Assembly: GCA_903813345.2 (NCBI GenBank)
Contig: CAIIXF020000002.1
Location: 17,615,467 to 17,679,466, forward strand
Reading direction: 5' to 3'
DNA: 64,000 bases
DNA from: Owenia fusiformis
Lineage: Eukaryota > Annelida > Polychaeta > Sabellida > Oweniidae
The notes beneath the pieces are model-generated. The model did no database searches, was not told where the DNA came from, and saw only the letters and a list, made by a program, of their open reading frames with translations. A program made the position numbers and the translations under genes. This document shows, piece after piece, positions 858 through 25,711 of the stretch. How positions within the stretch are numbered: position 1 is the first letter of the stretch; each line of letters opens with the position of its first letter.

Positions 858-1514
858 TTCATCAGAGACAAACATCACTCCAATAAGCATATACATTATC
901 ATTATTTACACTTTTATGATGTGATTTGTAATTGAGTTCCTTGTGAAAATTTGTTCTTTACCTATCTTAATAGGTAGTATTTAAGTCTATTGATAAAATG
1001 TATTGTATGTACATTGAATAACCTGGTAATTGATTCTAATATATACAAGTTGCTGTCTATACCTTCATAGAGAAGATCATGATCATCTATTATCTAGTGA
1101 AATAAATTAATTTGAAACTGATGTTCCTGTTGATATTTACAATTCAATTCCCTCAATAAGGAAAGGAGGGAAAATACTTTCCTAGTTTCTTCGAGAAATG
1201 GTCCTCCACAGTGGTTTTTTGTCATTTAAAACTTGAAGATGCAATATAAGTTCCCATGAACCTCTCTAAACCAATTAAAGTATAAAAAGTATTAATTATA
1301 GAGAGCTTTCGATAGAAATCCTCACTTGACTTAACTTTTGAGTGACATTGTATATGTAGTTCACAGTTTCTGATAAATGTTCCAGTTCCAAATTCTCTAC
1401 TTAAGTCATTCTTTGTTTTGGGAATGGTGTATTGTCAACCACGTGTACAATCCCATGTGCCCTGCATACTAGGCACAGCATTCACTGTCGCAACCTGATA
1501 TACAAGTTCATTGT

Positions 1515-1660
1515 TCATGAAATCTGCAACATTTTGTGCATTGTTTGGACAACCGGCCCTTCTGTGGCGTTAAAATGTTGCTCCACCCTATCCTGGCAGA
1601 GGAGTGTCTCACTCAGTTCTTCGAAAAGTATTGGAACTATTTCCACTACCAATGACCGCA
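1515..1660 (-). CDS. Terminal coding exon of an unrecognised minus-strand gene
   Basis: The exon follows a strong acceptor (TTATTATTCTTTCAG). It is open for 47 codons in the phase set by the upstream donor at 2012/2013, and stops with TGA at 1515-1517. The peptide is acidic and amphipathic, with pieces reading VRSLVVEIVPILFEELSE and LLCQDRVEQHFNATEGPVVQ, and looks like real protein rather than chance translation. I do not recognise the family. The exon is placed after the exon ending at 2013 because the phases agree (one base carried plus two). The gene would be transcribed towards position 1, with polyadenylation signals near 850. It is interesting because its upstream exon runs directly into the 2-kb tandem array. 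Confidence 0.5.
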
Positions 1661-1724
1661 CTGAAAGAATAATAAATACATGGTTCTGTTAATTCAGAAA
1701 GGATGAGTTCAGTAGAACTGTAGA

Positions 1725-1885
1725 AACTATGTAAGTGGAACACACTCGGGACCTCAAAAAAGTGTTCCACTTGAGACGTGATCCACTTAAAGAGGTTTAT
1801 TAACATGGAATAAATAGGCCTTGGGACTTTAAAAACAATGTTACACTTGTGAGATGATCCACTCAGCAGGTTCTACTGTTATCAT
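1725..1885. repeat. Decayed element related to the one at 28934-29087
   Basis: Several copies of a word like GTGTTCCACTT and its complement are spread through this stretch, as in the better preserved element near 29 kb. It lies in the intron between the two exons of the unknown minus-strand gene. Confidence 0.4.
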
Positions 1886-2012
1886 AACAAAAAAAGTCTT
1901 ACATCTTAATAACTGACTCCCATAAACTCCCATTAAGCACACATAAAACCAATTAATTTTATATCCACTGCATATTTAGGAAATGCAGCACTTGATAAAT
2001 GCACCACCTTAC

Positions 2013-2223
2013 CTGTAATCTTCCATCCTTCCAATGGTTGGTTCATTTTTTCCTCTCTAGAAAGATAACGAATCACCCGAACTTCTTCACTCTGTCTTTT
2101 TGTTCTCTCCAAGGCAAGAGGTATGTAGATACAAATGCTGCAGATAGGTAGCACAAATTGTAGATTCTCTGTGGTTTTCCTTGTGTGGTTCTTCTTGTTC
2201 TCTCCAAGGCAAGAGGCCTGCAC
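2013..2223 (-). CDS. Penultimate exon of the unrecognised minus-strand gene, merging into the array
   Basis: The 3' end is a strong donor (GATTACAG then GTAAGG) and leaves phase 1, which fits the exon at 1515-1660. The unique part, about 2013-2100, reads RQSEEVRVIRYLSREEK then MNQPLEGWKIT and is protein-like. Further upstream the same frame enters the 95-bp element of the tandem array, where the translation no longer looks like a normal protein. Two acceptors are possible: CTATCTGCAG before 2137, or ACTTTCAG before 2223. The start is therefore uncertain. The junction at about 2100 is the left edge of the array, so the array appears to have arisen next to, or from, internal parts of this gene. 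Family unknown. Confidence 0.45.
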
Positions 2224-4935
2224 CTGAAAGTACATTTAAGGAAAAGATCAGCAATGGTTCAATTAAAAAGAAAGAAAACCCCGAAACTAAGCCCACAATT
2301 TTAACATGAAAACCCAAAAGAAAAGACCCTTCAATCTACAACTGTAGCTAAAATGAACACAAGACTTCAGACCTTCAAAATTTAGATCTGGAGTAGTACT
2401 TGAAGTCAACTTTAAAATTGAATCATTACTGAGTAAGTATTGGTCAACAAAATACAATACAATACAAAACAAAACAATACAAAACTATACAATACAATAC
2501 AATACAATACAACACTAAGCACTAGATCCATGATCTTGGTCATCTGGTTCGTTGCTTGTCTAGTTCGTTGGTTGTTTGGTTCTTTGGAGGGAGTGTTGGT
2601 TAGTTGGTTGATTAATTAGTTAGTTGGTTGGTTAGTTTTAACCTATTGGGTGGTCTGGTGGTTGTCTGGTTGGTTAGTTGGTTGGTTAGTAAGTAAGTTA
2701 GTTAATAAATTAAGCCTATTGGGTCATTGGTTGGTCGGTTGGATGTCCGGTTGGTTGGTTGGTTGTCTGGTTGTTTGACACGCCCCCCCCCCCCCCCCAA
2801 GAAAAACTGGAATAGTACTGGGAGCAGCCCCCTGCTAATGGGATGCAACTGATTGCAAGAGATAAAACTGGTCAAAATGTGACATCTACGGTAAGTCCTG
2901 GAAACTCGAGCTAGTCCCCTCGTGGAGAAATGTGATTTCAACGGGACCGTCTTTTCGCAGGGACTTCACCATCTGTGCTACAAATAGATAAAAACATGTT
3001 GTAGTAGTTGTTATTTTACATAAAACTTTAAATAAAACTTTACTCTATACTTTACACTACACTACAAGTTAAAATTTGTTTCTCCCAATTTGATATAAAC
3101 CAGTAGACTTCCATATTTCTGATTTTGAAACATGAACTCTATCCCCCGGAAACCCAACCACCCCCCTCCCACTTTACCTTAGAGTCCAAGTTCCTCCACC
3201 AAAAATATGGGCTGGCCAAACAAAAGTCCACCAGTAAATATCAAACTGGGACTATGCAAAACCAGGAAGGAATACTTAACTTAGGTAGCAGGAACGCAGC
3301 TGTTGTCGACGTTGGGACGTTGGTCATCGGGCTCCTCATCTCCAAGCTGAAAGGGAACCTGAAAACAGAGGAACTAAACTGATGTAATAATTGAATAGAA
3401 AAAAAAGTACTTACTTTGGTGCTTTGGTGACAGGAACACGAACACCTTTCGCCCATGATACTGTTTACGTGGACTGGACCTGATGGCTCAAAGTTGTCGA
3501 AAGACTGATCCAGCTGTCGCCCTAACTTGGTGTGTTTGCTGCATCTCTCTCATAGTTGTACCTGAAAGATACAAGATAAGAAAATGAAAAATACAAGGAT
3601 GCAACTTGGTCGAGTCATTTCCAATACAAGCGGAGGAGGGAATGCCAAGACATTCCTTTCATTGACTCTAGTAAATCTGTCATTGCCTTGTACCCTCCCG
3701 GCTCGAGATTTATATCATCAAGTCAACTACTGTAGAAGTGGAAACTTTAGCGAAACAAAACTTTAGCGAGATGGTTCCTAAAACTCTATTGCCGAATTAA
3801 ACTTTCCCGGACCAGCAATCAAGAAAATGGAAAATTACTTGGGCGAGCTTATAAGCTTATTATTAGGTTATCATGAAGCATTTATTCACCAACACGATTG
3901 GTTGCATTTTTGTAAACCCCGAGTTGTAAACATGTATATCACAGTTATTAGCTCTATATCACCGTTATTAGCCCTAATAAAACTTGCCTTTCGAGGAATG
4001 GCGTGTCATCATCAAAGATAAGTCGTTTATGTTTGTGTGTAATCCCCAATCAATGTGCTCAAACTGTACAGTAGGTATTAATACGCGACAAACAATCAAA
4101 TAAGTAACAAACTCGACTAATTCACTATCAAACTTTATTCTATTTATTATTATTATAAGGAATAAATACTAGTATATTCTCATAAAATAATCGTATCATT
4201 CATGTGAGTGATAAGTTGTCACGTGACAGTAGATATCCAATCAAATAACAGATTTTGTGATCAAAAAATCGAAAAATTATTTCTGTATTGTTTTCATCAT
4301 TTAGGGCAACAAAACATGATTGCAAAACAAAATAGGTATTAATTATGATTGTAAATCGATGAGGAAGCATTGATGTATGTATTATTTACGTATTCGAAAC
4401 GAAATTCAGCAGGATGTCGATCTGTTGTATTCTTCACGGTATTATCGCCCACCAATATTTTTCTACGAATTTTTATATTGGCGTCTCTCCTTAAACGCTA
4501 AATTTCGCCAAAGTTTCCACGTCGTTAAAGTTTCCACTTCTACAGTAACTGCTTGGGCAGATGTAACTCTTTAGGAAGAATGGAATAGTGGAGTATATGT
4601 ATATTCTTTAAGAACACAGACCACATGTGAAAATAATGAAACATGGCTTCATGGTACATTTGTACATTAAGTGAAATCAAGGCAGTCATCATTTAGTGTA
4701 TTTCTTAGAAAAAATGTTTGCCAAACATACATGTGCCCACAATGGGATTAGAAGCCCAATAATTGAAAAATGTGTCATTGTGGAATAACCGTACTGAACC
4801 AGAGAGCAAAATCATCAAATGATAGAACAGATTATGTTTTACAGTACCTTTAACAAGATGGTATGTAGATATAAATGCTGCAGATAGGTAGCACAAATTG
4901 TAGATTCTCTGTGGTTTTCCTTTTGTGTTTCCTTT
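2101..4935. repeat. Array unit 1, interrupted by a MITE
   Basis: This leftmost unit is about 2,017 bp once the insertion at 3730-4545 is removed. It has the longest C-run (about 2786-2799) and the variant TGTTCTCTCC at its start, shared with units 6 and 8. It is the most diverged full unit, as expected at an array edge. Confidence 0.9.
3730..4545. mobile_element. MITE, TA target site, inserted in array unit 1
   Basis: The ends are CTGTAGAAGTGGAAACTTTA and its inverted counterpart ending in CCACTTCTACAG, flanked by TA on both sides. The other eleven-fold units have an uninterrupted GTCAACTAACTGC at this point, which proves the insertion and its TA duplication. TA target sites fit the Tc1/mariner superfamily. 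There is no transposase, so it is non-autonomous. Because it is in one unit only, it arrived after that unit had been copied, or was never spread by unit exchange. Confidence 0.85.
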
Positions 4936-6971
4936 TGTTCTCTTTAAGGCAAGAGGTATGTAGATACAAATGCTGCAGATAGGTAGCACAAATTGTAGAT
5001 TCTCTGTGGTTTTCCTTGTGTGGTTCTTCTTGTTCTCTCCAAGGCAAGAGGACTGCACCTGAAAGTACATTTAAGGAAAAGATCAGCGATGGTTCAATTA
5101 AAAAGAAAGAAAACCCCGAAACTAAGCCCACAATTTTAACATGAAAACCCAAAAGAAAAGAACCTTCAATCTACAACTGTAGCTAAAATGAACACAAGAC
5201 TTCAGACCTTCAAAATTTAGATCTGGAGTAGAACTTGAAGTCAACTTTAAAATTGAATCATTACTGAGTAAGTATTGGTCAACAAAATACAATACAATAC
5301 AAAATAAAACAATACAAAACTATACAATACAGTACAATACAATACAATACAATACAACACTAAGCACTAGATCCATGATCTTGGTCATCTGGTTCGTTGC
5401 TTGTCTAGTTCGTTGGTTGTTTGGTTCGCGTTGGTTTTTTGGTTCGTTGGAGGGAGTGTTGGTTAGTTGGTTGATTAATTAGTTAGTTGGTTGGTTAGTT
5501 TTAACCTATTGGGTGGTCTGGTGGTTGTCTGGTTGGTTAGTTGGTTGGTTAGTAAGTAAGTTAGTTAATAGATTAAGCCTATTGGGTCATTGGTTGGTCG
5601 GTTGGATGTCCGGTTGGTTGGTTGGTTGTCTGGTTGTTTGACACGCCCCCACCCCCAAGAAAAACTGGAATAGTACTGGGAGCAGCCCCCTGCTAATGGG
5701 ATGCAACTGATTGCATGAGATAAAACTGGTCAAAATGCGACATCTACGGTAAGTCCTGGAAACTCGAGCTAGTCCCCTGGTGGAGAAATGTGATTTCAAC
5801 GGGACCGTCTTTTTGCAGGGACTTCACCATCTGTGCTACAAATAGATAAAAACATGTTGTAGTAGTTGTTATTTTAAAACTTTAAATAAAACTGAACTCT
5901 ATACTTTACACTACACTACAAGTTAAAATTTATTTCTCCCAATTTGATATAAACCAGTAGACTTCCATATTTCTGATTTTGAAACATGAACTCTATCCCC
6001 CGGAAACCCAACCACCCCCCTCCCACTTTACCTTAGAGTCCAAGTTCCTCCACCAAAAATATGGGCTGGCCAAACAAAAGTCCACCAGTAAATATCAAAC
6101 TGGGACTATGCAAAACCAGGAAGGAATACTTAACTTAGGTAGCAGGAACGCAGCTGTTGTCGACGTTGGGACGTTGGTCATCGGGCTCCTCATCTCCAAG
6201 CTGAAAGGGAACCTGAAAACAGAGGAACTAAACTGATGTAATAATTGAATAGAAAAAAAAGTACTTACTTTGGTGCTTTGGTGACAGGAACACGAACACC
6301 TTTCGCCCATGATACTGTTTACGTGGACTGGACCTGATGGCTCAAAGTTGTCGAAAGACTGATCCAGCTGTCGCCCTAACTTGGTGTGTTTGCTGCATCT
6401 CTCTCATAGTTGTACCTGAAAGATACAAGATAAGAAAATGAAAAATACAAGGATGCAACTTGGTCGAGTCATTTCCAATACAAGCGGAGGAGGGAATGCC
6501 AAGACATTCCTTTCATTGACTCTAGTAAATCTGTCATTGCCTTGTACCCTCCCGGCTCGAGATTTATATCATCAAGTCAACTAACTGCTTGGGCAGATGT
6601 AACTCTTTAGGAAGAATGGAATAGTGGAGTATATGTATATTCTTTAAGAACACAGACCACATGTGAAAATAATGAAACATGGCTTCATGGTACATTTGTA
6701 CATTAAGTGAAATCAAGGCAGTCATCATTTAGTGTATTTCTTAGAAAAAATGTTTGCCAAACATACATGTGCCCACAATGGGATTAGAAGCCCAATAATT
6801 GAAAAATGTGTCGTTGTGGAATAACCGTACTGAACCAGAGAGCAAAATCATCAAATGATAGAACAGATTATGTTTTACAGTACCTTTAACAAGATGGTAT
6901 GTAGATATAAATGCTGCAGATAGGTAGCACAAATTGTAGATTCTCTGTGGTTTTCCTTTTGTGTTTCCTTT
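4936..6971. repeat. Array unit 2
   Basis: This unit is 2,036 bp and lacks the MITE. It starts with the TGTTCTCTTT variant, and a four-base ACAT deletion is visible near 5876 relative to its neighbours. Confidence 0.9.
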
Positions 6972-9016
6972 TGTTCTCTTTAAGGCAAGAGGTATGTAGA
7001 TACAAATGCTGCAGATAGGTAGCACAAATTGTAGATTCTCTGTGGTTTTCCTTGTGTGGTTCTTCTTGTTCTCTCCAAGGCAAGAGGACTGCACCTGAAA
7101 GTACATTTAAGGAAAAGATCAGCGATGGTTCAATTAAAAAGAAAGAAAACCCCGAAACTAAGCCCACAATTTTAACATGAAAACCCAAAAGAAAAGACCC
7201 TTCAATCTACAACTGTAGCTAAAATGAACACAAGACTTCAGACCTTCAAAATTTAGATCTGGAGTAGAACTTGAAGTCAACTTTAAAATTGAATCATTAC
7301 TGAGTAAGTATTGGTCAACAAAATACAATACAATACAAAACAAAACAATACAAAACTATACAATACAGTACAATACAATACAATACAATACAATACAACA
7401 CTAAGCACTAGATCCATGATCTTGGTCATCTGGTTCATTGCTTGTCTAGTTCGTTGGTTGTTTGGTTCGCGTTGGTTGTTTGGTTCGTTGGAGGGAGTGT
7501 TGGTTAGTTGGTTGATTAATTAGTTAGTTGGTTGGTTAGTTTTAACCTATTGGGTGGTCTGGTGGTTGTCTGGTTGGTTAGTTGGTTGGTTAGTAAGTAA
7601 GTTAGTTAATAGATTAAGCCTATTGGGTCATTGGTTGGTCGGTTGGATGTCCGGTTGGTTGGTTGGTTGTCTGGTTGTTTGACACGCCCCCACCCCCAAG
7701 AAAAACTGGAATAGTACTGGGAGCAGCCCCCTGCTAATGGGATGCAACTGATTGCATGAGATAAAACTGGTCAAAATGCGACATCTACGGTAAGTCCTGG
7801 AAACTCGAGCTAGTCCCCTCGTGGAGAAATGTGATTTCAACGGGACCGTCTTTTTGCAGGGACTTCACCATCTGTGCTACAAATAGATAAAAACATGTTG
7901 TAGTAGTTGTTATTTTACATAAAACTTTAAATAAAACTGAACTCTATACTTTACACTACACTACAAGTTAAAATTTATTTCTCCCAATTTGATATAAACC
8001 AGTAGACTTCCATATTTCTGATTTTGAAACATGAACTCTATCCCCCGGAAACCCAACCACCCCCCTCCCACTTTACCTTAGAGTCCAAGTTCCTCCACCA
8101 AAAATATGGGCTGGCCAAACAAAAGTCCACCAGTAAATATCAAACTGGGACTATGCAAAACCAGGAAGGAATACTTAACTTAGGTAGCAGGAACGCAGCT
8201 GTTGTCGACGTTGGGACGTTGGTCATCGGGCTCCTCATCTCCAAGCTGAAAGGGAACCTGAAAACAGAGGAACTAAACTGATGTAATAATTGAATAGAAA
8301 AAAAAGTACTTACTTTGGTGCTTTTGTGACAGGAACACGAACACCTTTCGCCCATGATACTGTTTACGTGGACTGGACCTGATGGCTCAAAGTTGTCGAA
8401 AGACTGATCCAGCTGTCGCCCTAACTTGGTGTGTTTGCTGCATCTCTCTCATAGTTGTACCTGAAAGATACAAGATAAGAAAATGAAAAATACAAGGATG
8501 CAACTTGGTCGAGTCATTTCCAATACAAGCGGAGGAGGGAATGCCAAGACATTCCTTTCATTGACTCTAGTAAATCTGTCATTGCCTTGTACCCTCCCGG
8601 CTCGAGATTTATATCATCAAGTCAACTAACTGCTTGGGCAGATGTAACTCTTTAGGAAGAATGGAATAGTGGAGTATATGTATATTCTTTAAGAACACAG
8701 ACCACATGTGAAAATAATGAAACATGGCTTCATGGTACATTTGTACATTAAGTGAAATCAAGGCAGTCATCATTTAGTGTATTTCTTAGAAAAAATGTTT
8801 GCCAAACATACATGTGCCCACAATGGGATTAGAAGCCCAATAATTGAAAAATGTGTCGTTGTGGAATAACCGTACTGAACCAGAGAGCAAAATCATCAAA
8901 TGATAGAACAGATTATGTTTAACAGTACCTTTAACAAGATGGTATGTAGATATAAATGCTGCAGATAGGTAGCACAAATTGTAGATTCTCTGTGGTTTTC
9001 CTTTTGTGTTTCCTTT
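6972..9016. repeat. Array unit 3
   Basis: This unit is 2,045 bp. It carries a G-to-T change near 8325 (CTTTTGTGAC) that recurs in the matching segments of units 5 and 7. Confidence 0.9.
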
Positions 9017-11051
9017 TGTTCTCTTTAAGGCAAGAGGTATGTAGATACAAATGCTGCAGATAGGTAGCACAAATTGTAGATTCTCTGTGGTTTTCCTTGT
9101 GTGGTTCTTCTTGTTCTCTCCAAGGCAAGAGGACTGCACCTGAAAGTACATTTAAGGAAAAGATCAGCGATGGTTCAATTAAAAAGAAAGAAAACCCCGA
9201 AACTAAGCCCACAATTTTAACATGAAAACCCAAAAGAAAAGAACCTTCAATCTACAACTGTAGCTAAAATGAACACAAGACTTCAGACCTTCAAAATTTA
9301 GATCTGGAGTAGAACTTGAAGTCAACTTTAAAATTGAGTCATTACTGAGTAAGTATTGGTCAACAAAATACAATACAATACAAAACAAAACAATACAAAA
9401 CTATACAATACAGTACAATACAATACAATACAACACTAAGCACTAGATCCATGATCTTGGTCATCTGGTTCGTTGCTTGTCTAGTTCGTTGGTTGTTTGG
9501 TTCGCGTTGGTTGTTTGGTTCGTTGGAGGGAGTGTTGGTTAGTTGGTTGATTAATTAGTTAGTTGGTTGGTTAGTTTTAACCTATTGGGTGGTCTGGTGG
9601 TTGTCTGGTTGGTTAGTTGGTTGGTTAGTAAGTAAGTTAGTTAATAGATTAAGCCTATTGGGTCATTGGTTGGTCGGTTGGATGTCCGGTTGGTTGGTTG
9701 GTTGTCTGGTTGTTTGACACGCCCCCACCCCCAAGAAAAACTGGAATAGTACTGGGAGCAGCCCCCTGCTAATGGGATGCAACTGATTGCATGAGATAAA
9801 ACTGGTCAAAATGCGACATCTACGGTAAGTCCTGGAAACTCGAGCTAGTCCCCTGGTGGAGAAATGTGATTTCAACGGGACCGTCTTTTTGCAGGGACTT
9901 CACCATCTGTGCTACAAATAGATAAAAACATGTTGTAGTAGTTGTTATTTTACATAAAACTTTAAATAAAACTGAACTCTATACTTTACACTACACTACA
10001 AGTTAAAATTTATTTCTCCCAATTTGATATAAACCAGTAGACTTCCATATTTCTGATTTTGAAACATGAACTCTATCCCCCGGAAACCCAACCACCCCCC
10101 TCCCACTTTACCTTAGAGTCCAAGTTCCTCCACCAAAAATATGGGCTGGCCAAACAAAAGTCCACCAGTAAATATCAAACTGGGACTATGCAAAACCAGG
10201 AAGGAATACTTAACTTAGGTAGCAGGAACGCAGCTGTTGTCGACGTTGGGACGTTGGTCATCGGGCTCCTCATCTCCAAGCTGAAAGGGAACCTGAAAAC
10301 AGAGGAACTAAACTGATGTAATAATTGAATAGAAAAAAAAGTACTTACTTTGGTGCTTTGGTGACAGGAACACGAACACCTTTCGCCCATGATACTGTTT
10401 ACGTGGACTGGACCTGATGGCTCAAAGTTGTCGAAAGACTGACCCAGCTGTCGCCCTAACTTGGTGTGTTTGCTGCATCTCTCTCATAGTTGTACCTGAA
10501 AGATACAAGATAAGAAAATGAAAAATACAAGGATGCAACTTGGTCGAGTCATTTCCAATACAAGCGGAGGAGGGAATGCCAAGACATTCCTTTCATTGAC
10601 TCTAGTAAATCTGTCATTGCCTTGTACCCTCCCGGCTCGAGATTTATATCATCAAGTCAACTAACTGCTTGGGCAGATGTAACTCTTTAGGAAGAATGGA
10701 ATAGTGGAGTATATGTATATTCTTTAAGAACACAGACCACATGTGAAAATAATGAAACATGGCTTCATGGTACATTTGTACATTAAGTGAAATCAAGGCA
10801 GTCATCATTTAGTGTATTTCTTAGAAAAAATGTTTGCCAAACATACATGTGCCCACAATGGGATTAGAAGCCCAATAATTGAAAAATGTGTCGTTGTGGA
10901 ATAACCGTACTGAACAAGAGAGCAAAATCATCAAATGATAGAACAGATTATGTTTTACAGTACCTTTAACAAGATGGTATGTAGATATAAATGCTGCAGA
11001 TAGGTAGCACAAATTGTAGATTCTCTGTGGTTTTCCTTTTGTGTTTCCTTT
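9017..11051. repeat. Array unit 4
   Basis: This unit is 2,035 bp. Near 10914 it has AACAAGAG where units 1-3 have AACCAGAG. The same variant recurs in units 6 and 8-11. Confidence 0.9.
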
Positions 11052-13100
11052 TGTTCTCTTTAAGGCAAGAGGTATGTAGATACAAATGCTGCAGATAGGT
11101 AGCACAAATTGTAGATTCTCTGTGGTTTTCCTTGTGTGGTTCTTCTTGTTCTCTCCAAGGCAAGAGGACTGCACCTGAAAGTACATTTAAGGAAAAGATC
11201 AGCGATGGTTCAATTAAAAAGAAAGAAAACCCCGAAACTAAGCCCACAATTTTAACATGAAAACCCAAAAGAAAAGACCCTTTAATCTACAACTGTAGCT
11301 AAAATGAACACAAGACTTCAGACCTTCAAAATTTAGATCTGGAGTAGAACTTGAAGTCAACTTTAAAATTGAATCATTACTGAGTAAGTATTGGTCAACA
11401 AAATACAATACAATACAAAACAAAACAATACAAAACTATACAATACAGTACAATACAATACAATACAATACAACACTAAGCACTAGATCCATGATCTTGG
11501 TCATCTGGTTCGTTGCTTGTCTAGTTCGTTGGTTGTTTGGTTCGCGTTGGTTGTTTGGTTCGTTGGAGGGAGTGTTGGTTAGTTGGTTGATTAATTAGTT
11601 AGTTGGTTGGTTAGTTTTTTACCTATTGGGTGGTCTGGTGGTTGTCTGGTTGGTTAGTTGGTTGGTTAGTAAGTAAGTTAGTTAATAGATTAAGCCTATT
11701 GGGTCATTGGTTGGTCGGTTGGATGTCCGGTTGGTTGGTTGGTTGTCTGGTTGTTTGACACGCCCCCACCCCCAAGAAAAACTGGAATAGTACTGGGAGC
11801 AGCCCCCTGCTAATGGGATGCAACTGATTGCATGAGATAAAACTGGTCAAAATGTGACATCTACGGTAAGTCCTGGAAACTCGAGCTAGTCCCCTGGTGG
11901 AGAAATGTGATTTCAACGGGACCGTCTTTTTGCAGGGACTTCACCATCTGTGCTACAAATAGATAAAAACATGTTGTAGTAGTTGTTATTTTACATAAAA
12001 CTTTAAATAAAACTGAACTCTATACTTTACACTACACTACAAGTTAAAATTTATTTCTCCCAATTTGATATAAACCAGTAGACTTCCATATTTCTGATTT
12101 TGAAACATGAACTCTATCCCCCGGAAACCCAACCACCCCCCTCCCACTTTACCTTAGAGTCCAAGTTCCTCCACCAAAAATATGGGCTGGCCAAACAAAA
12201 GTCCACCAGTAAATATCAAACTGGGACTATGCAAAACCAGGAAGGAATACTTAACTTAGGTAGCAGGAACGCAGCTGTTGTCGACGTTGGGACGTTGGTC
12301 ATCGGGCTCCTCATCTCCAAGCTGAAAGGGAACCTGAAAACAGAGGAACTAAACTGATGTAATAATTGAATAGAAAAAAAAGTACTTACTTTGGTGCTTT
12401 TGTGACAGGAACACGAACACCTTTCGCCCATGATACTGTTTACGTGGACTGGACCTGATGGCTCAAAGTTGTCGAAAGACTGATCCAGCTGTCGCCCTAA
12501 CTTGGTGTGTTTGCTGCATCTCTCTCATAGTTGTACCTGAAAGATACAAGATAAGAAAATGAAAAATACAAGGATGCAACTTGGTCGAGTCATTTCCAAT
12601 ACAAGCGGAGGAGGGAATGCCAAGACATTCCTTTCATTGACTCTAGTAAATCTGTCATTGCCTTGTACCCTCCCGGCTCGAGATTTATATCATCAAGTCA
12701 ACTAACTGCTTGGGCAGATGTAACTCTGTAGGAAGAATGGAAGAATGGAATAGTGGAGTATATGTATATTCTTTAAGAACACAGACCACATGTGAAAATA
12801 ATGAAACATGGCTTCATGGTACATTTGTACATTAAGTGAAATCAAGGCAGTCATCATTTAGTGTATTTCTTAGAAAAAATGTTTGCCAAACATACATGTG
12901 CCCACAATGGGATTAGAAGCCCAATAATTGAAAAATGTGTCGTTGTGGAATAACCGTACTGAACCAGAGAGCAAAATCATCAAATGATAGAACCGATTAT
13001 GTTTTACAGTACCTTTAACAAGATGGTATGTAGATATAAATGCTGCAGATAGGTAGCACAAATTGTAGATTCTCTGTGGTTTTCCTTTTGTGTTTCTTTT
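11052..13100. repeat. Array unit 5
   Basis: This unit is 2,049 bp. It carries a private cluster shared only with unit 7: a doubled GGAAGAAT near 12731, ACCGATTATG near 12993 and a T-rich TTTCTTTTTG at its right end. Confidence 0.9.
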
Positions 13101-15111
13101 TGTTCTCTCCAAGGCAAGAGGTATGTAGATACAAATGCTGCAGATAGGTAGCACAAATTGTAGATTCTCTGTGGTTTTCCTTGTGTGGTTCTTCTTGTTC
13201 TCTCCAAGGCAAGAGGACTGCACCTGAAAGTACATTTAAGGAAAAGATCAGCGATGGTTCAATTAAAAAGAAAGAAAACCCCGAAACTAAGCCCACAATT
13301 TTAACATGAAAACCCAAAAGAAAAGACCCTTCAATCTACAACTGTAGCTAAAATGAACACAAGACTTCAGACCTTCAAAATTTAGATCTGGAGTAGTACT
13401 TGAAGTCAACTTTAAAATTGAATCATTACTAAGTAAGTATTGGTCAACAAAATACAATACAATACAAAACAAAACAATACAAAACTATACAATACAATAC
13501 AATACAATACAACACTAAGCACTAGATCCATGATCTTGGTCATCTGGTTCGTTGCTTGTCTAGTTCGTTGTTTGTTTGGTTCGTTGGAGGGAGTGTTGGT
13601 TAGTTGGTTGATTAATTAGTTAGTTGGTTGGTTAGTTTTAACCTATTGGGTGGTCTGGTGGTTGTCTGGTTGGTTAGTTGGTTGGTTAGTAAGTAAGTTA
13701 ATTAATAGATTAAGCCTATTGGGTCATTGGTTGGTCGGTTGGATGTCCGGTTGGTTGGTTGGTTGTCTGGTTGTTTGACACGCCCACACCCCCAAGAAAA
13801 ACTGGAATAGTACTGGGAGCAGCCCCCTGCTAATGGGATGCAACTGATTGCATGAGATAAAACTGGTCAAAATGCGACAACTACGGTAAGTCCTGGAAAC
13901 TCGAGCTAGTCCCCTGGTGGAGAAATGTGATTTCAACGGGACCGTCTTTTTGCAGGGACTTCACCATCTGTGCTACAAATAGATAAAAACATGTTGTAGT
14001 AGTTGTTATTTTACATAAAACTTTAAATAAAACTGAACTCTATACTTTACACTACACTACAAGTTAAAATTTATTTCTCCCAATTTGATATAAACCAGTA
14101 GACTTCCATATTTCTGATTTTGAAACATGAACTCTATCCCCCGGAAACCCAACCACCCCCCTCCCACTTTACCTTAGAGTCCAAGTTCCTCCACCAAAAA
14201 TATGGGCTGGCCAAACAAAAGTCCACCAGTAAATATCAAACTGGGACTATGCAAAACCAGGAAGGAATACTTAACTTAGGTAGCAGGAACGCAGCTGTTG
14301 TCGACGTTGGGACGTTGGTCATCGGGCTCCTCATCTCCAAGCTGAAAGGGAACCTGAAAACAGAGGAACTAAACTGATGTAATAATTGAATAGAAAAAAA
14401 GTACTTACTTTGGTGCTTTGGTGACAGGAACACGAACACCTTTCGCCCATGATACTGTTTACGTGGACTGGACCTGATGGCTCAAAGTTGTCGAAAGACT
14501 GATCCAGCTGTCGCCCTAACTTGGTGTGTTTGCTGCATCTCTCTCATAGTTGTACCTGAAAGATACAAGATAAGAAAATGAAAAATACAAGGATGCAACT
14601 TGGTCGAGTCATTTCCAATACAAGCGGAGGAGGGAATGCCAAGACATTCCTTTCATTGACTCTAGTAAATCTGTCATTGCCTTGTACCCTCCCGGCTCGA
14701 GATTTATATCATCAAGTCAACTAACTGCTTGGGCAGATGTAACTCTTTAGGAAGAATGGAATAGTGGAGTATATGTATATTCTTTAAGAACACAGACCAC
14801 ATGTGAAAATAATGAAACATGGCTTCATGGTACATTTGTACATTAAGTGAAATCAAGGCAGTCATCATTTAGTGTATTTCTTAGAAAAAATGTTTGCCAA
14901 ACATACATGTGCCCACAATGGGATTAGAAGCCCAATAATTGAAAAATGTGTCGTTGTGGAATAACCGTACTGAACAAGAGAGCAAAATCATCAAATGATA
15001 GAACAGATTATGTTTTACAGTACCTTTAACAAGATGGTATGTAGATATAAATGCTGCAGATAGGTAGCCCAAATTGTAGATTCTCTGTGGTTTTCCTTTT
15101 GTGTTTCCTTT
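13101..15111. repeat. Array unit 6
   Basis: This unit is 2,011 bp, the shortest full copy, partly because of a shorter AATAC run. It starts with the TGTTCTCTCC variant and has a seven-A run near 14394. Confidence 0.9.
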
Positions 15112-17159
15112 TGTTCTCTTTAAGGCAAGAGGTATGTAGATACAAATGCTGCAGATAGGTAGCACAAATTGTAGATTCTCTGTGGTTTTCCTTGTGTGGT
15201 TCTTCTTGTTCTCTCCAAGGCAAGAGGACTGCACCTGAAAGTACATTTAAGGAAAAGATCAGCGATGGTTCAATTAAAAAGAAAGAAAACCCCGAAACTA
15301 AGCCCACAATTTTAACATGAAAACCCAAAAGAAAAGACCCTTCAATCTACAACTGTAGCTAAAATGAACACAAGACTTCAGACCTTCAAAATTTAGATCT
15401 GGAGTAGAACTTGAAGTCAACTTTAAAATTGAATCATTACTGAGTAAGTATTGGTCAACAAAATACAATACAATACAAAACAAAACAATACAAAACTATA
15501 CAATACAGTACAATACAATACAATACAATACAACACTAAGCACTAGATCCATGATCTTGGTCATCTGGTTCGTTGCTTGTCTAGTTCGTTGGTTGTTTGG
15601 TTCGCGTTGGTTGTTTGGTTCGTTGGAGGGAGTGTTGGTTAGTTGGTTGATTAATTAGTTAGTTGGTTGGTTAGTTTTAACCTATTGGGTGGTCTGGTGG
15701 TTGTCTGGTTGGTTAGTTGGTTGGTTAGTAAGTAAGTTAGTTAATAGATTAAGCCTATTGGGTCATTGGTTGGTCGGTTGGATGTCCGGTTGGTTGGTTG
15801 GTTGTCTGGTTGTTTGACACGCCCCCACCCCCAAGAAAAACTGGAATAGTACTGGGAGCAGCCCCCTGCTAATGGGATGCAACTGATTGCATGAGATAAA
15901 ACTGGTCAAAATGCGACATCTACGGTAAGTCCTGGAAACTCGAGCTAGTCCCCTGGTGGAGAAATGTGATTTCAACGGGACCGTCTTTTTGCAGGGACTT
16001 CACCATCTGTGCTACAAATAGATAAAAACATGTTGTAGTAGTTGTTATTTTACATAAAACTTTAAATAAAACTGAACTCTATACTTTACACTACACTACA
16101 AGTTAAAATTTATTTCTCCCAATTTGATATAAACCAGTAGACTTCCATATTTCTGATTTTGAAACATGAACTCTATCCCCCGGAAACCCAACCACCCCCC
16201 TCCCACTTTACCTTAGAGTCCAAGTTCCTCCACCAAAAATATGGGCTGGCCAAACAAAAGTCCACCAGTAAATATCAAACTGGGACTATGCAAAACCAGG
16301 AAGGAATACTTAACTTAGGTAGCAGGAACGCAGCTGTTGTCGACGTTGGGACGTTGGTCATCGGGCTCCTCATCTCCAAGCTGAAAGGGAACCTGAAAAC
16401 AGAGGAACTAAACTGATGTAATAATTGAATAGAAAAAAAAGTACTTACTTTGGTGCTTTTGTGACAGGAACACGAACACCTTTCGCCCATGATACTGTTT
16501 ACGTGGACTGGACCTGATGGCTCAAAGTTGTCGAAAGACTGATCCAGCTGTCGCCCTAACTTGGTGTGTTTGCTGCATCTCTCTCATAGTTGTACCTGAA
16601 AGATACAAGATAAGAAAATGAAAAATACAAGGATGCAACTTGGTCGAGTCATTTCCAATACAAGCGGAGGAGGGAATGCCAAGACATTCCTTTCATTGAC
16701 TCTAGTAAATCTGTCATTGCCTTGTACCCTCCCGGCTCGAGATTTATATCATCAAGTCAACTAACTGCTTGGGCAGATGTAACTCTGTAGGAAGAATGGA
16801 AGAATGGAATAGTGGAGTATATGTATATTCTTTAAGAACACAGACCACATGTGAAAATAATGAAACATGGCTTCATGGTACATTTGTACATTAAGTGAAA
16901 TCAAGGCAGTCATCATTTAGTGTATTTCTTAGAAAAAATGTTTGCCAAACATACATGTGCCCACAATGGGATTAGAAGCCCAATAATTGAAAAATGTGTC
17001 GTTGTGGAATAACCGTACTGAACCAGAGAGCAAAATCATCAAATGATAGAACCGATTATGTTTTACAGTACCTTTAACAAGATGGTATGTAGATATAAAT
17101 GCTGCAGATAGGTAGCACAAATTGTAGATTCTCTGTGGTTTTCCTTTTGTGTTTCTTTT
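15112..17159. repeat. Array unit 7
   Basis: This unit is 2,048 bp and nearly identical to unit 5, including the doubled GGAAGAAT near 16792. Unit 5 is 4,059 bp away, exactly two unit lengths. Confidence 0.9.
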
Positions 17160-19186
17160 TGTTCTCTCCAAGGCAAGAGGTATGTAGATACAAATGCTGC
17201 AGATAGGTAGCACAAATTGTAGATTCTCTGTGGTTTTCCTTGTGTGGTTCTTCTTGTTCTCTCCAAGGCAAGAGGACTGCACCTGAAAGTACATTTAAGG
17301 AAAAGATCAGCGATGGTTCAATTAAAAAGAAAGAAAACCCCGAAACTAAGCCCACAATTTTAACATGAAAACCCAAAAGAAAAGACCCTTCAATCTACAA
17401 CTGTAGCTAAAATGAACACAAGACTTCAGACCTTCAAAATTTAGATCTGGAGTAGAACTTGAAGTCAACTTTAAAATTGAATCATTACTGAGTAAGTATT
17501 GGTCAACAAAATACAATACAATACAAAACAAAACAAAACAATACAAAACTATACAATACAGTACAATACAATACAATACAATACAACACTAAGCACTAGA
17601 TCCATGATCTTGGTCATCTGGTTCGTTGCTTGTCTAGTTCGTTGGTTGTTTGGTTCGTTGGAGGGAGTGTTGGTTAGTTGGTTGATTAATTAGTTAGTTG
17701 GTTGGTTAGTTTTAACCTATTGGGTGGTCTGGTGGTTGTCTGGTTGGTTAGTTGGTTGGTTAGTAAGTAAGTTAGTTAATAGATTAAGCCTATTGGGTCA
17801 TTGGTTGGTCGGTTGGATGTCCGGTTGGTTGGTTGGTTGTCTGGTTGTTTGACACGCCCCCACCCCCAAGAAAAACTGGAATAGTACTGGGAGCAGCCCC
17901 CTGCTAATGGGATGCAACTGATTGCATGAGATAAAACTGGTCAAAATGCGACATCTACGGTAAGTCCTGGAAACTCGAGCTAGTCCCCTGGTGGAGAAAT
18001 GTGATTTCAACGGGACCGTCTTTTTGCAGGGACTTCACCATCTGTGCTACAAATAGATAAAAACATGTTGTAGTAGTTGTTATTTTACATAAAACTTTAA
18101 ATAAAACTGAACTCTATACTTTACACTACACTACAAGTTAAAATTTATTTCTCCCAATTTGATATAAACCAGTAGACTTCCATATTTCTGATTTTGAAAC
18201 ATGAACTCTATCCCCCGGAAACCCAACCACCCCCCTCCCACTTTACCTTAGAGTCCAAGTTCCTCCACCAAAAATATGGGCTGGCCAAACAAAAGTCCAC
18301 CAGTAAATATCAAACTGGGACTATGCAAAACCAGGAAGGAATACTTAACTTAGGTAGCAGGAACGCAGCTGTTGTCGACGTTGGGACGTTGGTCATCGGG
18401 CTCCTCATCTCCAAGCTGAAAGGGAACCTGAAAACAGAGGAACTAAACTGATGTAATAATTGAATAGAAAAAAAAGTACTTACTTTGGTGCTTTGGTGAC
18501 AGGAACACGAACACCTTTCGCCCATGATACTGTTTACGTGGACTGGACCTGATGGCTCAAAGTTGTCGAAAGACTGATCCAGCTGTCGCCCTAACTTGGT
18601 GTGTTTGCTGCATCTCTCTCATAGTTGTACCTGAAAGATACAAGATAAGAAAATGAAAAATACAAGGATGCAACTTGGTCGAGTCATTTCCAATACAAGC
18701 GGAGGAGGGAATGCCAAGACATTCCTTTCATTGACTCTAGTAAATCTGTCATTGCCTTGTACCCTCCCGGCTCGAGATTTATATCATCAAGTCAACTAAC
18801 TGCTTGGGCAGATGTAACTCTTTAGGAAGAATGGAATAGTGGAGTATATGTATATTCTTTAAGAACACAGACCACATGTGAAAATAATGAAACATGGCTT
18901 CATGGTACATTTGTACATTAAGTGAAATCAAGGCAGTCATCATTTAGTGTATTTCTTAGAAAAAATGTTTGCCAAACATACATGTGCCCACAATGGGATT
19001 AGAAGCCCAATAATTGAAAAATGTGTCGTTGTGGAATAACCGTACTGAACAAGAGAGCAAAATCATCAAATGATAGAACAGATTATGTTTTACAGTACCT
19101 TTAACAAGATGGTATGTAGATATAAATGCTGCAGATAGGTAGCACAAATTGTAGATTCTCTGTGGTTTTCCTTTTGTGTTTCCTTT
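17160..19186. repeat. Array unit 8
   Basis: This unit is 2,027 bp. It starts with TGTTCTCTCC, as unit 6 does, and has a slightly longer AAAAC/AATAC run near 17515-17585. Confidence 0.9.
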
Positions 19187-21215
19187 TGTTCTCTTTAAGG
19201 CAAGAGGTATGTAGATACAAATGCTGCAGATAGGTAGCACAAATTGTAGATTCTCTGTGGTTTTCCTTGTGTGGTTCTTCTTGTTCTCTCCAAGGCAAGA
19301 GGACTGCACCTGAAAGTACATTTAAGGAAAAGATCAGCGATGGTTCAATTAAAAAGAAAGAAAACCCCGAAACTAAGCCCACAATTTTAACATGAAAACC
19401 CAAAAGAAAAGACCCTTCAATCTACAACTGTAGCTAAAATGAACACAAGACTTCAGACCTTCAAAATTTAGATCTGGAGTAGAACTTGAAGTCAACTTTA
19501 AAATTGAATCATTACTGAGTAAGTATTGGTCAACAAAATACAATACAATACAAAACAATACAAAACTATACAATACAGTACAATACAATACAATACAATA
19601 CAACACTAAGCACTAGATCCATGATCTTGGTCATCTGGTTCGTTGCTTGTCTAGTTCGTTGGTTGTTTGGTTCGCGTTGGTTGTTTGGTTCGTTGGAGGG
19701 AGTGTTGGTTAGTTGGTTGATTAATTAGTTAGTTGGTTGGTTAGTTTTAACCTATTGGGTGGTCTGGTGGTTGTCTGGTTGGTTAGTTGGTTGGTTAGTA
19801 AGTAAGTTAGTTAATAGATTAAGCCTATTGGGTCATTGGTTGGTCGGTTGGATGTCCGGTTGGTTGGTTGTCTGGTTGTTTGACACGCCCCCACCCCCAA
19901 GAAAAACTGGAATAGTACTGGGAGCAGCCCCCTGCTAATGGGATGCAACTGATTGCATGAGATAAAACTGGTCAAAATGCGACATCTACGGTAAGTCCTG
20001 GAAACTCGAGCTAGTCCCCTGGTGGAGAAATGTGATTTCAACGGGACCGTCTTTTTGCAGGGACTTCACCATCTGTGCTACAAATAGATAAAAACATGTT
20101 GTAGTAGTTGTTATTTTACATAAAACTTTAAATAAAACTGAACTCTATACTTTACACTACACTACAAGTTAAAATTTATTTCTCCCAAATTGATATAAAC
20201 CAGTAGACTTCCATATTTCTGATTTTGAAACATGAACTCTATCCCCGGAAACCCAACCACCCCCCTCCCACTTTACCTTAGAGTCCAAGTTCCTCCACCA
20301 AAAATATGGGCTGGCCAAACAAAAGTCCACCAGTAAATATCAAACTGGGACTATGCAAAACCAGGAAGGAATACTTAACTTAGGTAGCAGGAACGCAGCT
20401 GTTGTCGACGTTGGGACGTTGGTCATCGGGCTCATCATCTCCAAGCTGAAAGGGAACCTGAAAACAGAGGAACTAAACTGATGTAATAATTGAATAGAAA
20501 AAAAGTACTTACTTTGGTGCTTTGGTGACAGGAACACGAACACCTTTCGCCCATGATACTGTTTACGTGGACTGGACCTGATGGCTCAAAGTTGTCGAAA
20601 GACTGATCCAGCTGTCGCCCTAACTTGGTGTGTTTGCTGCATCTCTCTCATAGTTGTACCTGAAAGATACAAGATAAGAAAATGAAAAATACAAGGATGC
20701 AACTTGGTCGAGTCATTTCCAATACAAGCGGAGGAGGGAATGCCAAGACATTCCTTTCATTGACTCTAGTAAATCTGTCATTGCCTTGTACCCTCCCGGC
20801 TCGAGATTTATATCATCAAGTCAACTAACTGCTTGGGCAGATGTAACTCTTTAGGAAGAATGGAATAGTGGAGTATATGTATATTCTTTAAGAACACAGA
20901 CCACATGTGAAAATAATGAAACATGGCTTCATGGTACATTTGTACATTAAGTGAAATCAAGGCAGTCATCATTTAGTGTATTTCTTAGAAAAAATGTTTG
21001 CCAAACATACATGTGCCCACAATGGGATTAGAAGCCCAATAATTGAAAAATGTGTCGTTGTGGAATAACCGTACTGAACAAGAGAGCAAAATCATCAAAT
21101 GATAGAACAGATTATGTTTTACAGTACCTTTAACAAGATGGTATGTAGATATAAATGCTGCAGATAGGTAGCACAAATTGTAGATTCTCTGTGGTTTTCC
21201 TTTTGTGTTTCCTTT
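19187..21215. repeat. Array unit 9
   Basis: This unit is 2,029 bp. It has one C fewer in the C-run near 20245, which breaks an 85-codon plus-strand frame that is open in the other full units, and one GGTT less near 19866. Confidence 0.9.
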
Positions 21216-23259
21216 TGTTCTCTTTAAGGCAAGAGGTATGTAGATACAAATGCTGCAGATAGGTAGCACAAATTGGAGATTCTCTGTGGTTTTCCTTGTG
21301 TGGTTCTTCTTGTTCTCTCCAAGGCAAGAGGACTGCACCTGAAAGTACATTTAAGGAAAAGATCAGCGATGGTTCAATTAAAAAGAAAGAAAACCCCGAA
21401 ACTAAGCCCACAATTTTAACATGAAAACCCAAAAGAAAAGACCCTTCAATCTACAACTGTAGCTAAAATGAACACAAGACTTCAGACCTTCAAAATTTAG
21501 ATCTGGAGTAGAACTTGAAGTCAACTTTAAAATTGAATCATTACTGAGTAAGTATTGGTCAACAAAATACAATACAATACAAAACAAAACAAAACAATAC
21601 AAAACTATACAATACAGTACAATACAATACAATACAATACAACACTAAGCACTAGATCCATGATCTTGGTCATCTGGTTCGTTGCTTGTCTAGTTCGTTG
21701 GTTGTTTGGTTCGCGTTGGTTGTTTGGTTCGTTGGAGGGAGTGTTGGTTAGTTGGTTGATTAATTAGTTAGTTGGTTGGTTAGTTTTAACCTATTGGGTG
21801 GTCTGGTGGTTGTCTGGTTGGTTAGTTGGTTGGTTAGTAAGTAAGTTAGTTAATAGATTAAGCCTATTGGGTCATTGGTTGGTCGGTTGGATGTCCGGTT
21901 GGTTGGTTGGTTGTCTGGTTGTTTGACACGCCCCCACCCCCAAGAAAAACTGGAATAGTACTGGGAGCAGCCCCCTGCTAATGGGATGCAACTGATTGCA
22001 TGAGATAAAACTGGTCAAAATGCGACATCTACGGTAAGTCCTGGAAACTCGAGCTAGTCCCCTGGTGGAGAAATGTGATTTCAACGGGACCGTCTTTTTG
22101 CAGGGACTTCACCATCTGTGCTACAAATAGATAAAAACATGTTGTAGTAGTTGTTATTTTACATAAAACTTTAAATAAAACTGAACTCTATACTTTACAC
22201 TACACTACAAGTTAAAATTTATTTCTCCCAATTTGATATAAACCAGTAGACTTCCATATTTCTGATTTTGAAACATGAACTCTATCCCCCGGAAACCCAA
22301 CCACCCCCCTCCCACTTTACCTTAGAGTCCAAGTTCCTCCACCAAAAATATGGGCTGGCCAAACAAAAGTCCACCAGTAAATATCAAACTGGGACTATGC
22401 AAAACCAGGAAGGAATACTTAACTTAGGTAGCAGGAACGCAGCTGTTGTCGACGTTGGGACGTTGGTCATCGGGCTCCTCATCTCCAAGCTGAAAGGGAA
22501 CCTGAAAACAGAGGAACTAAACTGATGTAATAATTGAATAGAAAAAAAGTACTTACTTTGGTGCTTTGGTGACAGGAACACGAACACCTTTCGCCCATGA
22601 TACTGTTTACGTGGACTGGACCTGATGGCTCAAAGTTGTCGAAAGACTGATCCAGCTGTCGCCCTAACTTGGTGTGTTTGCTGCATCTCTCTCATAGTTG
22701 TACCTGAAAGATACAAGATAAGAAAATGAAAAATACAAGGATGCAACTTGGTCGAGTCATTTCCAATACAAGCGGAGGAGGGAATGCCAAGACATTCCTT
22801 TCATTGACTCTAGTAAATCTGTCATTGCCTTGTACCCTCCCGGCTCGAGATTTATATCATCAAGTCAACTAACTGCTTGGGCAGATGTAACTCTTTAGGA
22901 AGAATGGAATAGTGGAGTATATGTATATTCTTTAAGAACACAGACCACATGTGAAAATAATGAAACATGGCTTCATGGTACATTTGTACATTAAGTGAAA
23001 TCAAGGCAGTCATCATTTAGTGTATTTCTTAGAAAAAATGTTTGCCAAACATACATGTGCCCACAATGGGATTAGAAGCCCAATAATTGAAAAATGTGTC
23101 GTTGTGGAATAACCGTACTGAACAAGAGAGCAAAATCATCAAATGATAGAACAGATTATGTTTTACAGTACCTTTAACAAGATGGTATGTAGATATAAAT
23201 GCTGCAGATAGGTAGCACAAATTGTAGATTCTCTGTGGTTTTCCTTTTGTGTTTCCTTT
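21216..23259. repeat. Array unit 10
   Basis: This unit is 2,044 bp and shares the seven-A run near 22553 with units 6, 9 and 11. A T-to-G change near 21275 alters the 95-bp repeat. Confidence 0.9.
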
Positions 23260-25288
23260 TGTTCTCTTTAAGGCAAGAGGTATGTAGATACAAATGCTGC
23301 AGATAGGTAGCACAAATTGTAGATTCTCTGTGGTTTTCCTTGTGTGGTTCTTCTTGTTCTCTCCAAGGCAAGAGGACTGCACCTGAAAGTACATTTAAGG
23401 AAAAGATCAGCGATGGTTCAATTAAAAAGAAAGAAAACCCCGAAACTAAGCCCACAATTTTAACATGAAAACCCAAAAGAAAAGACCCTTCAATCTACAA
23501 CTGTAGCTAAAATGAACACAAGACTTCAGACCTTCAAAATTTAGATCTGGAGTAGAACTTGAAGTCAACTTTAAAATTGAATCATTACTGAGTAAGTATT
23601 GGTCAACAAAATACAATACAATACAAAACAAAACAATACAAAACTATACAATACAGTACAATACAATACAATACAACACTAAGCACTAGATCCATGATCT
23701 TGGTCATCTGGTTCGTTGCTTGTCTAGTTCGTTGGTTGTTTGGTTCGCGTTGGTTGTTTGGTTCGTTGGAGGGAGTGTTGGTTAGTTGGTTGATTAATTA
23801 GTTAGTTGGTTGGTTAGTTTTAACCTATTGGGTGGTCTGGTGGTTGTCTGGTTGGTTAGTTGGTTGGTTAGTAAGTAAGTTAGTTAATAGATTAAGCCTA
23901 TTGGGTCATTGGTTGGTCGGTTGGATGTCCGGTTGGTTGGTTGGTTGTCTGGTTGTTTGACACGCCCCCACCCCCAAGAAAAACTGGAATAGTACTGGGA
24001 GCAGCCCCCTGCTAATGGGATGCAACTGATTGCATGAGATAAAACTGGTCAAAATGCAACATCTACGGTAAGTCCTGGAAACTCGAGCTAGTCCCCTCGT
24101 GGAGAAATGTGATTTCAACGGGACCGTCTTTTTGCAGGGACTTCACCATCTGTGCTACAAATAGATAAAAACATGTTGTAGTAGTTGTTATTTTACATAA
24201 AACTTTAAATAAAACTGAACTCTATACTTTACACTACAAGTTAAAATTTATTTCTCCCAATTTGATATAAACCAGTAGACTTCCATATTTCTGATTTTGA
24301 AACATGAACTCTATCCCCCGGAAACCCAACCACCCCCCTCCCACTTTACCTTAGAGTCCAAGTTCCTCCACCAAAAATATGGGCTGGCCAAACAAAAGTC
24401 CACCAGTAAATATCAAACTGGGACTATGCAAAACCAGGAAGGAATACTTAACTTAGGTAGCAGGAACGCAGCTGTTGTCGACGTTGGGACGTTGGTCATC
24501 GGGCTCCTCATCTCCAAGCTGAAAGGGAACCTGAAAACAGAGGAACTAAACTGATGTAATAATTGAATAGAAAAAAAGTACTTACTTTGGTGCTTTGGTG
24601 ACAGGAACACGAACACCTTTCGCCCATGATACTGTTTACGTGGACTGGACCTGATGGCTCAAAGTTGTCGAAAGACTGATCCAGCTGTCGCCCTAACTTG
24701 GTGTGTTTGCTGCATCTCTCTCATAGTTGTACCTGAAAGATACAAGATAAGAAAATGAAAAATACAAGGATGCAACTTGGTCGAGTCATTTCCAATACAA
24801 GCGGAGGAGGGAATGCCAAGACATTCCTTTCATTGACTCTAGTAAATCTGTCATTGCCTTGTACCCTCCCGGCTCGAGATTTATATCATCAAGTCAACTA
24901 ACTGCTTGGGCAGATGTAACTCTTTAGGAAGAATGGAATAGTGGAGTATATGTATATTCTTTAAGAACACAGACCACATGTGAAAATAATGAAACATGGC
25001 TTCATGGTACATTTGTACATTAAGTGAAATCAAGGCAGTCATCATTTAGTGTATTTCTTAGAAAAAATGTTTGCCAAACATACATGTGCCCACAATGGGA
25101 TTAGAAGCCCAATAATTGAAAAATGTGTCGTTGTGGAATAACCGTACTGAACAAGAGAGCAAAATCATCAAATGATAGAACAGATTATGTTTTACAGTAC
25201 CTTTAACAAGATGGTATGTAGATATAAATGCTGCAGATAGGTAGCACAAATTGTAGATTCTCTGTGGTTTTCCTTTTGTGTTTCCTTT
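23260..25288. repeat. Array unit 11
   Basis: This unit is 2,029 bp. One CACTA is missing from the CACTACACTA stretch near 24232. Confidence 0.9.
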
Positions 25289-25710
25289 TGTTCTCTTTAA
25301 GGCAAGAGGTATGTAGATACAAATGCTGCAGATAGGTAGCACAAATTGTAGATTCTCTGTGGTTTTCCTTGTGTGGTTCTTCTTGTTCTCTCCAAGGCAA
25401 GAGGACTGCACCTGAAAGTACATTTAAGGAAAAGATCAGCGATGGTTCAATTAAAAAGAAAGAAAACCCCGAAACTAAGCCCACAATTTTAACATGAAAA
25501 CCCAAAAGAAAAGACCCTTCAATCTACAACTGTAGCTAAAATGAACACAAGACTTCAGACCTTCAAAATTTAGATCTGGAGTAGAACTTGAAGTCAACTT
25601 TAAAATTGAATCATTACTGAGTCAGTATTGGTCAACAAAATACAATACAATACAAAACAAAACAATACAAAACTATACAATACAGTACAATACAACACTA
25701 AGCACTACTG
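25289..25710. repeat. Array unit 12, partial (right end of array)
   Basis: Only the first ~422 bp of a unit is present. It ends within AAGCACTA, and the next base starts CTGGCCCCGATTG, unrelated to the array. Confidence 0.85.
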
Positions 25711-25711
25711 G

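Follow-up and report, generated by a model that had tools for sequence, protein, structure and literature searches.

Whether a protein-coding gene runs through the long tandem array near the left end of a 64,000-nucleotide stretch of the Owenia fusiformis genome (the window; C2:17615467-17679466 in the 498 Mb genome searched here) is the question raised by this locus. An earlier note on the window had described the array and two minus-strand, phase-matched exons to its left, both of which are borne out, and had read them as parts of one gene. We find instead that the locus is probably a noncoding composite of a dead transposon and a satellite, in which a promoter-like block, an array with units of 2-3.3 kb depending on the locus, and the dead 3' exons of a transposase follow one another in one orientation. 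This arrangement, in order and strand alike, is repeated at many loci. The features of the window locus are listed below, with splice junctions marked by a slash and with L085 denoting a related transposase elsewhere in the genome.

1441..1660, minus strand: decayed exon 5 of a P-element-like transposase (C-terminal, RNase H C-terminal region), from tblastn with exon 5 of L085
1661..2012, minus strand: remnant of intron 4/5; L085 has an intron at the same place
2013..2094, minus strand: remaining 3' portion of exon 4, cut off at the array edge, from tblastn against exon 4 and from sister loci
2095..25695, no strand assigned: noncoding array of tandem units, each ~2.03 kb, incomplete at its ends
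2800..2964, no strand assigned: ~165 bp segment with the KSLQ/KSLR peptide, tandemly repeated inside units at loci L065/L066
3415..3561, minus strand: exon-A-like segment of unit 1, acceptor TTTCAG/GTACAAC, donor AAA/GTAAGT
3730..4545, no strand assigned: 0.8-kb insertion resembling a miniature inverted-repeat transposable element (MITE), with inverted ends CTGTAGAAGTGGAAAC and a TA duplication
25705..28543, minus strand: right flank, on the upstream side, with pieces common to other array loci
27388..27666, minus strand: promoter-like block upstream of the array, with an inverted CCAAT, a TCACGTG E-box and AACAAAGG

The identity of the left exons rests on a relative within the same genome. 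A genome search with an open-frame copy of the exons returned four near-identical relatives, at C2:10.98, C4:29.37, C10:19.10 and C11:2.20 Mb, at 73% identity, as well as longer open frames on C7 and C9. The C11 relative, L085, was read over 3 kb, a stretch that contains the end of exon 1 (..DVPHLLKTSRN..) followed by exons HGHEIRWGHV.., VLSSSVAHY.., WLTDDFLGW..GWKIT and VRSFVEL..PLPKKRR; the element ends, and the larger share of exon 1's first half, lie outside it. L085 matches PF21788 (E=1e-14), PF21789 (25.0 bits, over the cut-off) and PF21787 (72.4 bits), TNP-like domains that we take to be those of P-element transposases. The L085 transposase is apparently intact, the exons within the 3 kb read being open.

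Exon 5 of L085 aligns with the window at 1661-1572 and 1575-1441 in two frames (tblastn, E=5e-15 and 2e-14), the frame changing near 1573, and the stop after MLQIS is a product of this frameshift. Window positions 2085-2014 match codons 16-44 of exon 4, weakly when taken alone (E=0.005; 0.045 over the whole window), and the assignment is backed by the shared junction ..GWKIT/VRS.. and by sister loci. At the nucleotide level, the exon 4/5 junction of the window, ACA G/TG CGG, is that of the L085 transposase. Exon 4 is present at full length at five loci (L065/L037, L038, L014/L039, L044 and L048) and exon 3 was detected at four (L040, L041/L068, L044 and L048). At L065 (C2:16.42 Mb) and L068 (C11:16.61 Mb) the flank extends beyond the equivalent of position 2092 and carries the 5' part of exon 4 missing from the window. 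The upstream exon does not, as had been supposed, continue straight into the array: because the array edge cuts exon 4, the long "exon" is a chimera, half transposase and half array.

The matching phase and C-terminal position of the two exons hold, as does the strong donor at 2013/2012 (CAG/GTAAGG, 12.4 bits by splice-site matrices), but the acceptor at 1661, likewise described as strong, scored under the 8-bit listing threshold. Its AG is present in 14/14 aligned rows, yet 292 of 581 columns are invariant anyway. The C-terminal peptide of the window matched five other places in the genome, and the left-flank DNA matched many. Peptides from three of five sister copies scored 17.9-18.9 bits against PF21789 (TNP-like RNase H C-terminal), under its 24-bit cut-off (best E 0.0015); the window's own C-terminal peptide had no Pfam match, and none of seven peptides of the window locus matched Pfam at E<=1. 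Sequence searches of the PDB with two peptides returned 0 rows, and the one PDB row for exon 5, a ferritin, is a chance match (E 1.2). As for the 5' half of the gene, PF21787 (RNase H-like catalytic N) had 27 genome matches at E<=1, all of them outside the window and more than 25 kb from any listed array; for PF21788 (GTP-binding insertion domain), the L085 exon 2 peptide was unmatched at array loci at E<=0.001. Judged by their sequence, the two left pieces are descendants of true exons from the C-terminus of a minus-strand P-element-like transposase gene, and the "unknown gene" of the earlier note is such a transposase, broken at the window locus.

The ancestor was a working transposase, and its exon 5 copies have diverged without coding constraint. 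Over 12 rows and 66 pairs (L045 and L038 dropped as having near-identical partners, L013 and L039 kept though very alike), differences at codon positions 1/2/3 number 734/738/637, with ~5,700 comparisons at each, and this evenness indicates that the copies drifted as dead DNA. The open-frame copy, L043, differs from the relative at 18/17/55 sites by codon position, and when L043 is taken as the reference, each of the 11 other rows has one or more gaps whose length is not a multiple of three.

The array itself contains 11 copies of an exon-A anchor and 12 of another unit anchor. Differences between units amount to 0.15-0.8%, rising to 0.8-1.1% when the edge unit, unit 1, is set against the others; the MITE-like insertion is confined to unit 1, its junction being uninterrupted in the other ten. 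Exon A has a stop in every frame after its acceptor, although one frame would stay open if a later acceptor were used. Its 12 gapless variants have 5/5/6 variable sites by codon position, and the count-weighted differences of 5/5/23 rest mainly on two sites. The peptide reported from every unit can indeed be read there, as KSLQKDGPVEITFLHQG in 8/11 units, KSLQ..HEG in 2/11 and KSLR..HEG in unit 1, but it does not behave as coding sequence: among 36 copies of the KSLQ..HQG stretch from 22 sources there are 16 distinct variants, 12 of which carry insertions of one base (9 variants) or two (3 variants, four rows), leaving as gapless only three window variants and that of L033. The minus-strand acceptors and donors seen in each unit likewise stand at fixed places because the units are near-identical, without exceeding what dinucleotide shuffles give (sense donors in one unit 2 vs 2.5 expected, acceptors 4 vs 2.7 +/- 1.6). 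A plus-strand intron-like stretch of 70 bases at 5749-5818 (GTAAGT..TTTTTGCAG; donor 10.4, acceptor 11.3 bits) is equally good.

The proposal that the array consists of dead copies of the gene's exons comes close in that the array is dead DNA; copies of transposase exons it does not appear to be, no homology being detected. The unit had no match to either flank at E<=1e-3 (dust-filtered blastn), matches of 12-15 bases only to the 3-kb element fragment read, and none at E<1 to the five L085 exon peptides or to the RNase H exon in its coding frame (tblastn). The unit occupies the place expected for exons 1-2, with the promoter-like block on one side and exons 3-5 on the other, and might still derive from the first half of the transposon's exon 1 or from its ends, beyond the stretch read. 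Searches for known RNAs gave 0 Rfam matches at gathering score over the whole window, five sub-threshold Rfam matches for one unit, and 0 tRNA matches. A hairpin scan of one unit on both strands (206 windows of 100 bases) had a best z of -4.7, for a short stem on the sense strand at the exon-B acceptor.

The composite is a genome-wide family. With as many as 3 mismatches allowed, a 36-base exon-A signature has 354 occurrences (169 on the forward and 185 on the reverse strand), against 0 for the backwards control. Among the matches listed, 234 distinct copies fall into 48 groups (gaps up to 9 kb), or about 47 loci; the pair of groups near C12:21.18 Mb may in fact be single. C2 (11.5-17.7 Mb) and C12 (18.3-23.9 Mb) together account for 45 of the 48. 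The array loci are dispersed, and both orientations occur. The promoter-like block is found at 40 places (47 match rows, seven secondary pieces merged). For 33 of these a listed array on the same strand follows downstream at no more than 25 kb; no block has an array on the opposite strand within that distance, and same-strand arrays on the wrong side are likewise absent. Among the seven unpaired blocks, one has an array at a distance of 27.4 kb, and for two others a terminal-exon remnant occurs on their own contig and strand. Conversely, 34 of the 48 listed array groups have a block, and 13 of 17 terminal-exon places, which we chose from peptide and left-flank matches, have a same-strand array within 12 kb upstream; the window is among both the 40 and the 17. 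Array edges stand at differing unit phases (window, L065, L068 and L069), and flank homology between loci ends raggedly. Very similar array loci occur on different contigs (C2:16.42 and C12:20.12 Mb; C2:12.06 and C12:23.61 Mb), near-twin pairs pointing to recent interchromosomal duplication. Outside the C2 domain, 13 spaced copies of left-flank fragments lie at C2:18.59-18.96 Mb, and the one read, L084 (C2:18.63 Mb), combines a decayed unit fragment with a reverse-transcriptase-like reading of non-LTR (long terminal repeat) type, and yielded no gene.

Comparison of three locus pairs shows substitution levels of 16.7, 14.4 and 15.2% in the left, transposase-side flank and of 4.2-4.4, 5.4-5.6 and 5.4% in the units of the same pairs. 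Units so much more alike than that flank indicate that the arrays are homogenised between loci. Copies are more alike within than between loci and the edge unit is the most diverged, as in a satellite undergoing concerted evolution; outside indels, divergence is fairly even over the exon-like and intron-like parts of the unit (multi-locus alignment, to which L065, L066 and L068 contributed no usable full unit).

We propose that an old P-like insertion lost the 5' half of its coding region and that, at this site, a noncoding segment from next to it or within it underwent tandem amplification. This composite would then have been copied as passive DNA, by segmental duplication, to about 47 places, mainly in two chromosomal domains, where the arrays may grow, shrink and homogenise through unequal exchange and gene conversion, both inside single loci and from one locus to another; at the window, such turnover would have removed the 5' part of exon 4. 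Any transcript from the promoter-like block would be a noncoding RNA.

Several observations weigh against this account. The promoter-side flank differs by 7.3 and 6.4% in two pairs, nearer the units than the other flank; constraint or wider conversion tracts could be responsible, and the simplest form of the account does not explain it. The homogenisation comparison comprises three locus pairs only. In the decayed outlier L084, exon A is 94.7% identical (76 bases) as against 81.6-84.6% for the ~600-base unit match, which would fit some constraint on exon A. At C2:11.54 Mb exon 5 matches in a single stop-free frame for 91/94 codons, and the copy at C5:20.85 Mb does so for codons 6-74, although both copies have gaps not divisible by three. 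P-type transposons have terminal inverted repeats and an 8-bp target duplication; neither terminal inverted repeats nor target duplications of the element were found. A 52-base inverted pair around the window locus, considered as element ends, is a dispersed repeat. Nor is the regular spacing of the array loci, described below, explained.

The alternative that survives best, while still unlikely, is a family of long noncoding RNA (lncRNA) genes, in which the block drives transcripts whose array exons are spliced to the old transposase exons and the RNA or PIWI-interacting RNAs (piRNAs) are maintained. The uniform order and strand would suit it, as would the strong donor at 2013, the conserved acceptor AG, the lower divergence of the promoter-side flank in two pairs and the block itself, in which an alignment of 15 loci retains TCACGTG in 15/15, AACAAAGG in 15/15 and the inverted CCAAT (ATTGG) in 14/15. 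Pairwise identity in the block is, however, 0.80-0.94 per 20 bases (0.57 in the first 20), about that of dead exon 5 (0.87-0.89, over a different set of loci), so that there is no sign of extra constraint. For this reason selection on the promoter of such a gene family is not claimed, the block being conserved no more than a dead exon. The splice-like sites of the unit and the Rfam search of the window, given above, also speak against such genes.

Somewhat less likely again is that the composite itself transposed as a non-autonomous P-like transposon mobilised by a related transposase. Near-identical transposase copies at four places on four contigs and the dispersal of array loci in both orientations are what such mobility would produce, but it would hardly concentrate 45 of the 48 listed groups on C2 or C12 rather than over all chromosomes, and the ragged flank ends and the dispersed nature of the 52-base inverted pair also count against it.

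Spacing raises a further and quite improbable reading, that the arrays, each with its promoter-like block, act as a functional chromosomal element placed at regular intervals, with a mean spacing of ~228-265 kb over two megabase domains. On C2 the gaps between 24 listed loci measure 142-519 kb (mean 265 kb, coefficient of variation (CV) 0.39), and 0 of 20,000 random placements were as even. The 20 listed loci on C12 have a CV of 1.01 (P 0.71); the 19 from 19.79 Mb onward, a cut chosen after seeing the data, have a mean of 228 kb and a CV of 0.39 (0/20,000). Were this reading true, the loci would be domain-marking noncoding RNA sites or pairing or boundary elements, made out of a dead transposon and kept similar by conversion between loci.

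The living gene with exons repeated eleven-fold through the array that the earlier note envisaged is barely credible, since against the real, phase-matched exon junction at 1660/2013, the protein-like peptides and the count-weighted exon-A differences stand a frameshifted exon 5 without coding signal, a truncated exon 4, the stops and even variable sites of exon A, the insertions in the KSLQ stretch and the lack of Pfam matches among the seven locus peptides.

Phase-matched exons with good splice sites can evidently be fossils, and where the units of an array are 99% identical, finding a peptide in all of them adds no independent support for coding. Read as a composite of dead transposon and satellite, the apparent unknown gene becomes a datable system in which dead transposase exons provide a neutral clock beside the arrays, and interlocus homogenisation becomes measurable at tens of loci in one genome.

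Other features of the window were seen in passing. A ~400-base repeat at 26660-27056 is 98-100% identical to more than 30 scored copies over C1-C12. It also matches its own reverse complement at ~85% identity and looks like a young palindromic mobile element. Exons of a mitochondrial carrier gene, an ordinary host gene, lie at 49233-50263 on the minus strand (PF00153, E 8e-44 and 1e-8). The stretches 51002-51382 (plus strand) and 52877-53248 (minus strand) give the same reading over the 58 residues compared and form an inverted repeat. Further tandem repeats, at 46378-47320 and 37710-38473, comprise two neighbouring 73-base arrays and a 355-base doublet.

The literature on repeated-exon noncoding RNAs, piRNA promoters, transposon-derived satellites and P-like transposases offered analogies only. 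The 1.688 satellite of Drosophila consists of dispersed, X-linked short arrays. The Owenia family resembles this satellite (PMC7642928) in that its short dispersed arrays cluster in particular chromosomal territories, but its unit is several times longer and its flanks are fixed and in fixed order. The lncRNA Firre has local repeats within one locus and not elsewhere (PMC4820808); local repeats within a locus are shared with Owenia, where about 47 loci are involved. Drosophila virilis likewise has a DNA transposon linked to satellite-like arrays in a restricted chromosomal environment, the Tetris foldback transposon with the TIR-220 satellite, whose tandem repeats of ~220 bp are located within the terminal inverted repeats (PMC4079207). 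By contrast, the Owenia unit of 2-3.3 kb is unrelated to the transposase parts read and stands between the 3' exons and the promoter-like block. With P-element-like (TNP-like) transposases the array loci share homologous exons, 4-5 at the window and 3-5 at some loci, and the exon 4/5 junction, and sister copies and the relative share the RNase H C-terminal motif; unlike those transposases, the array loci keep only frameshifted 3' exons, the RNase H N and GTP-binding domains not having been found there.

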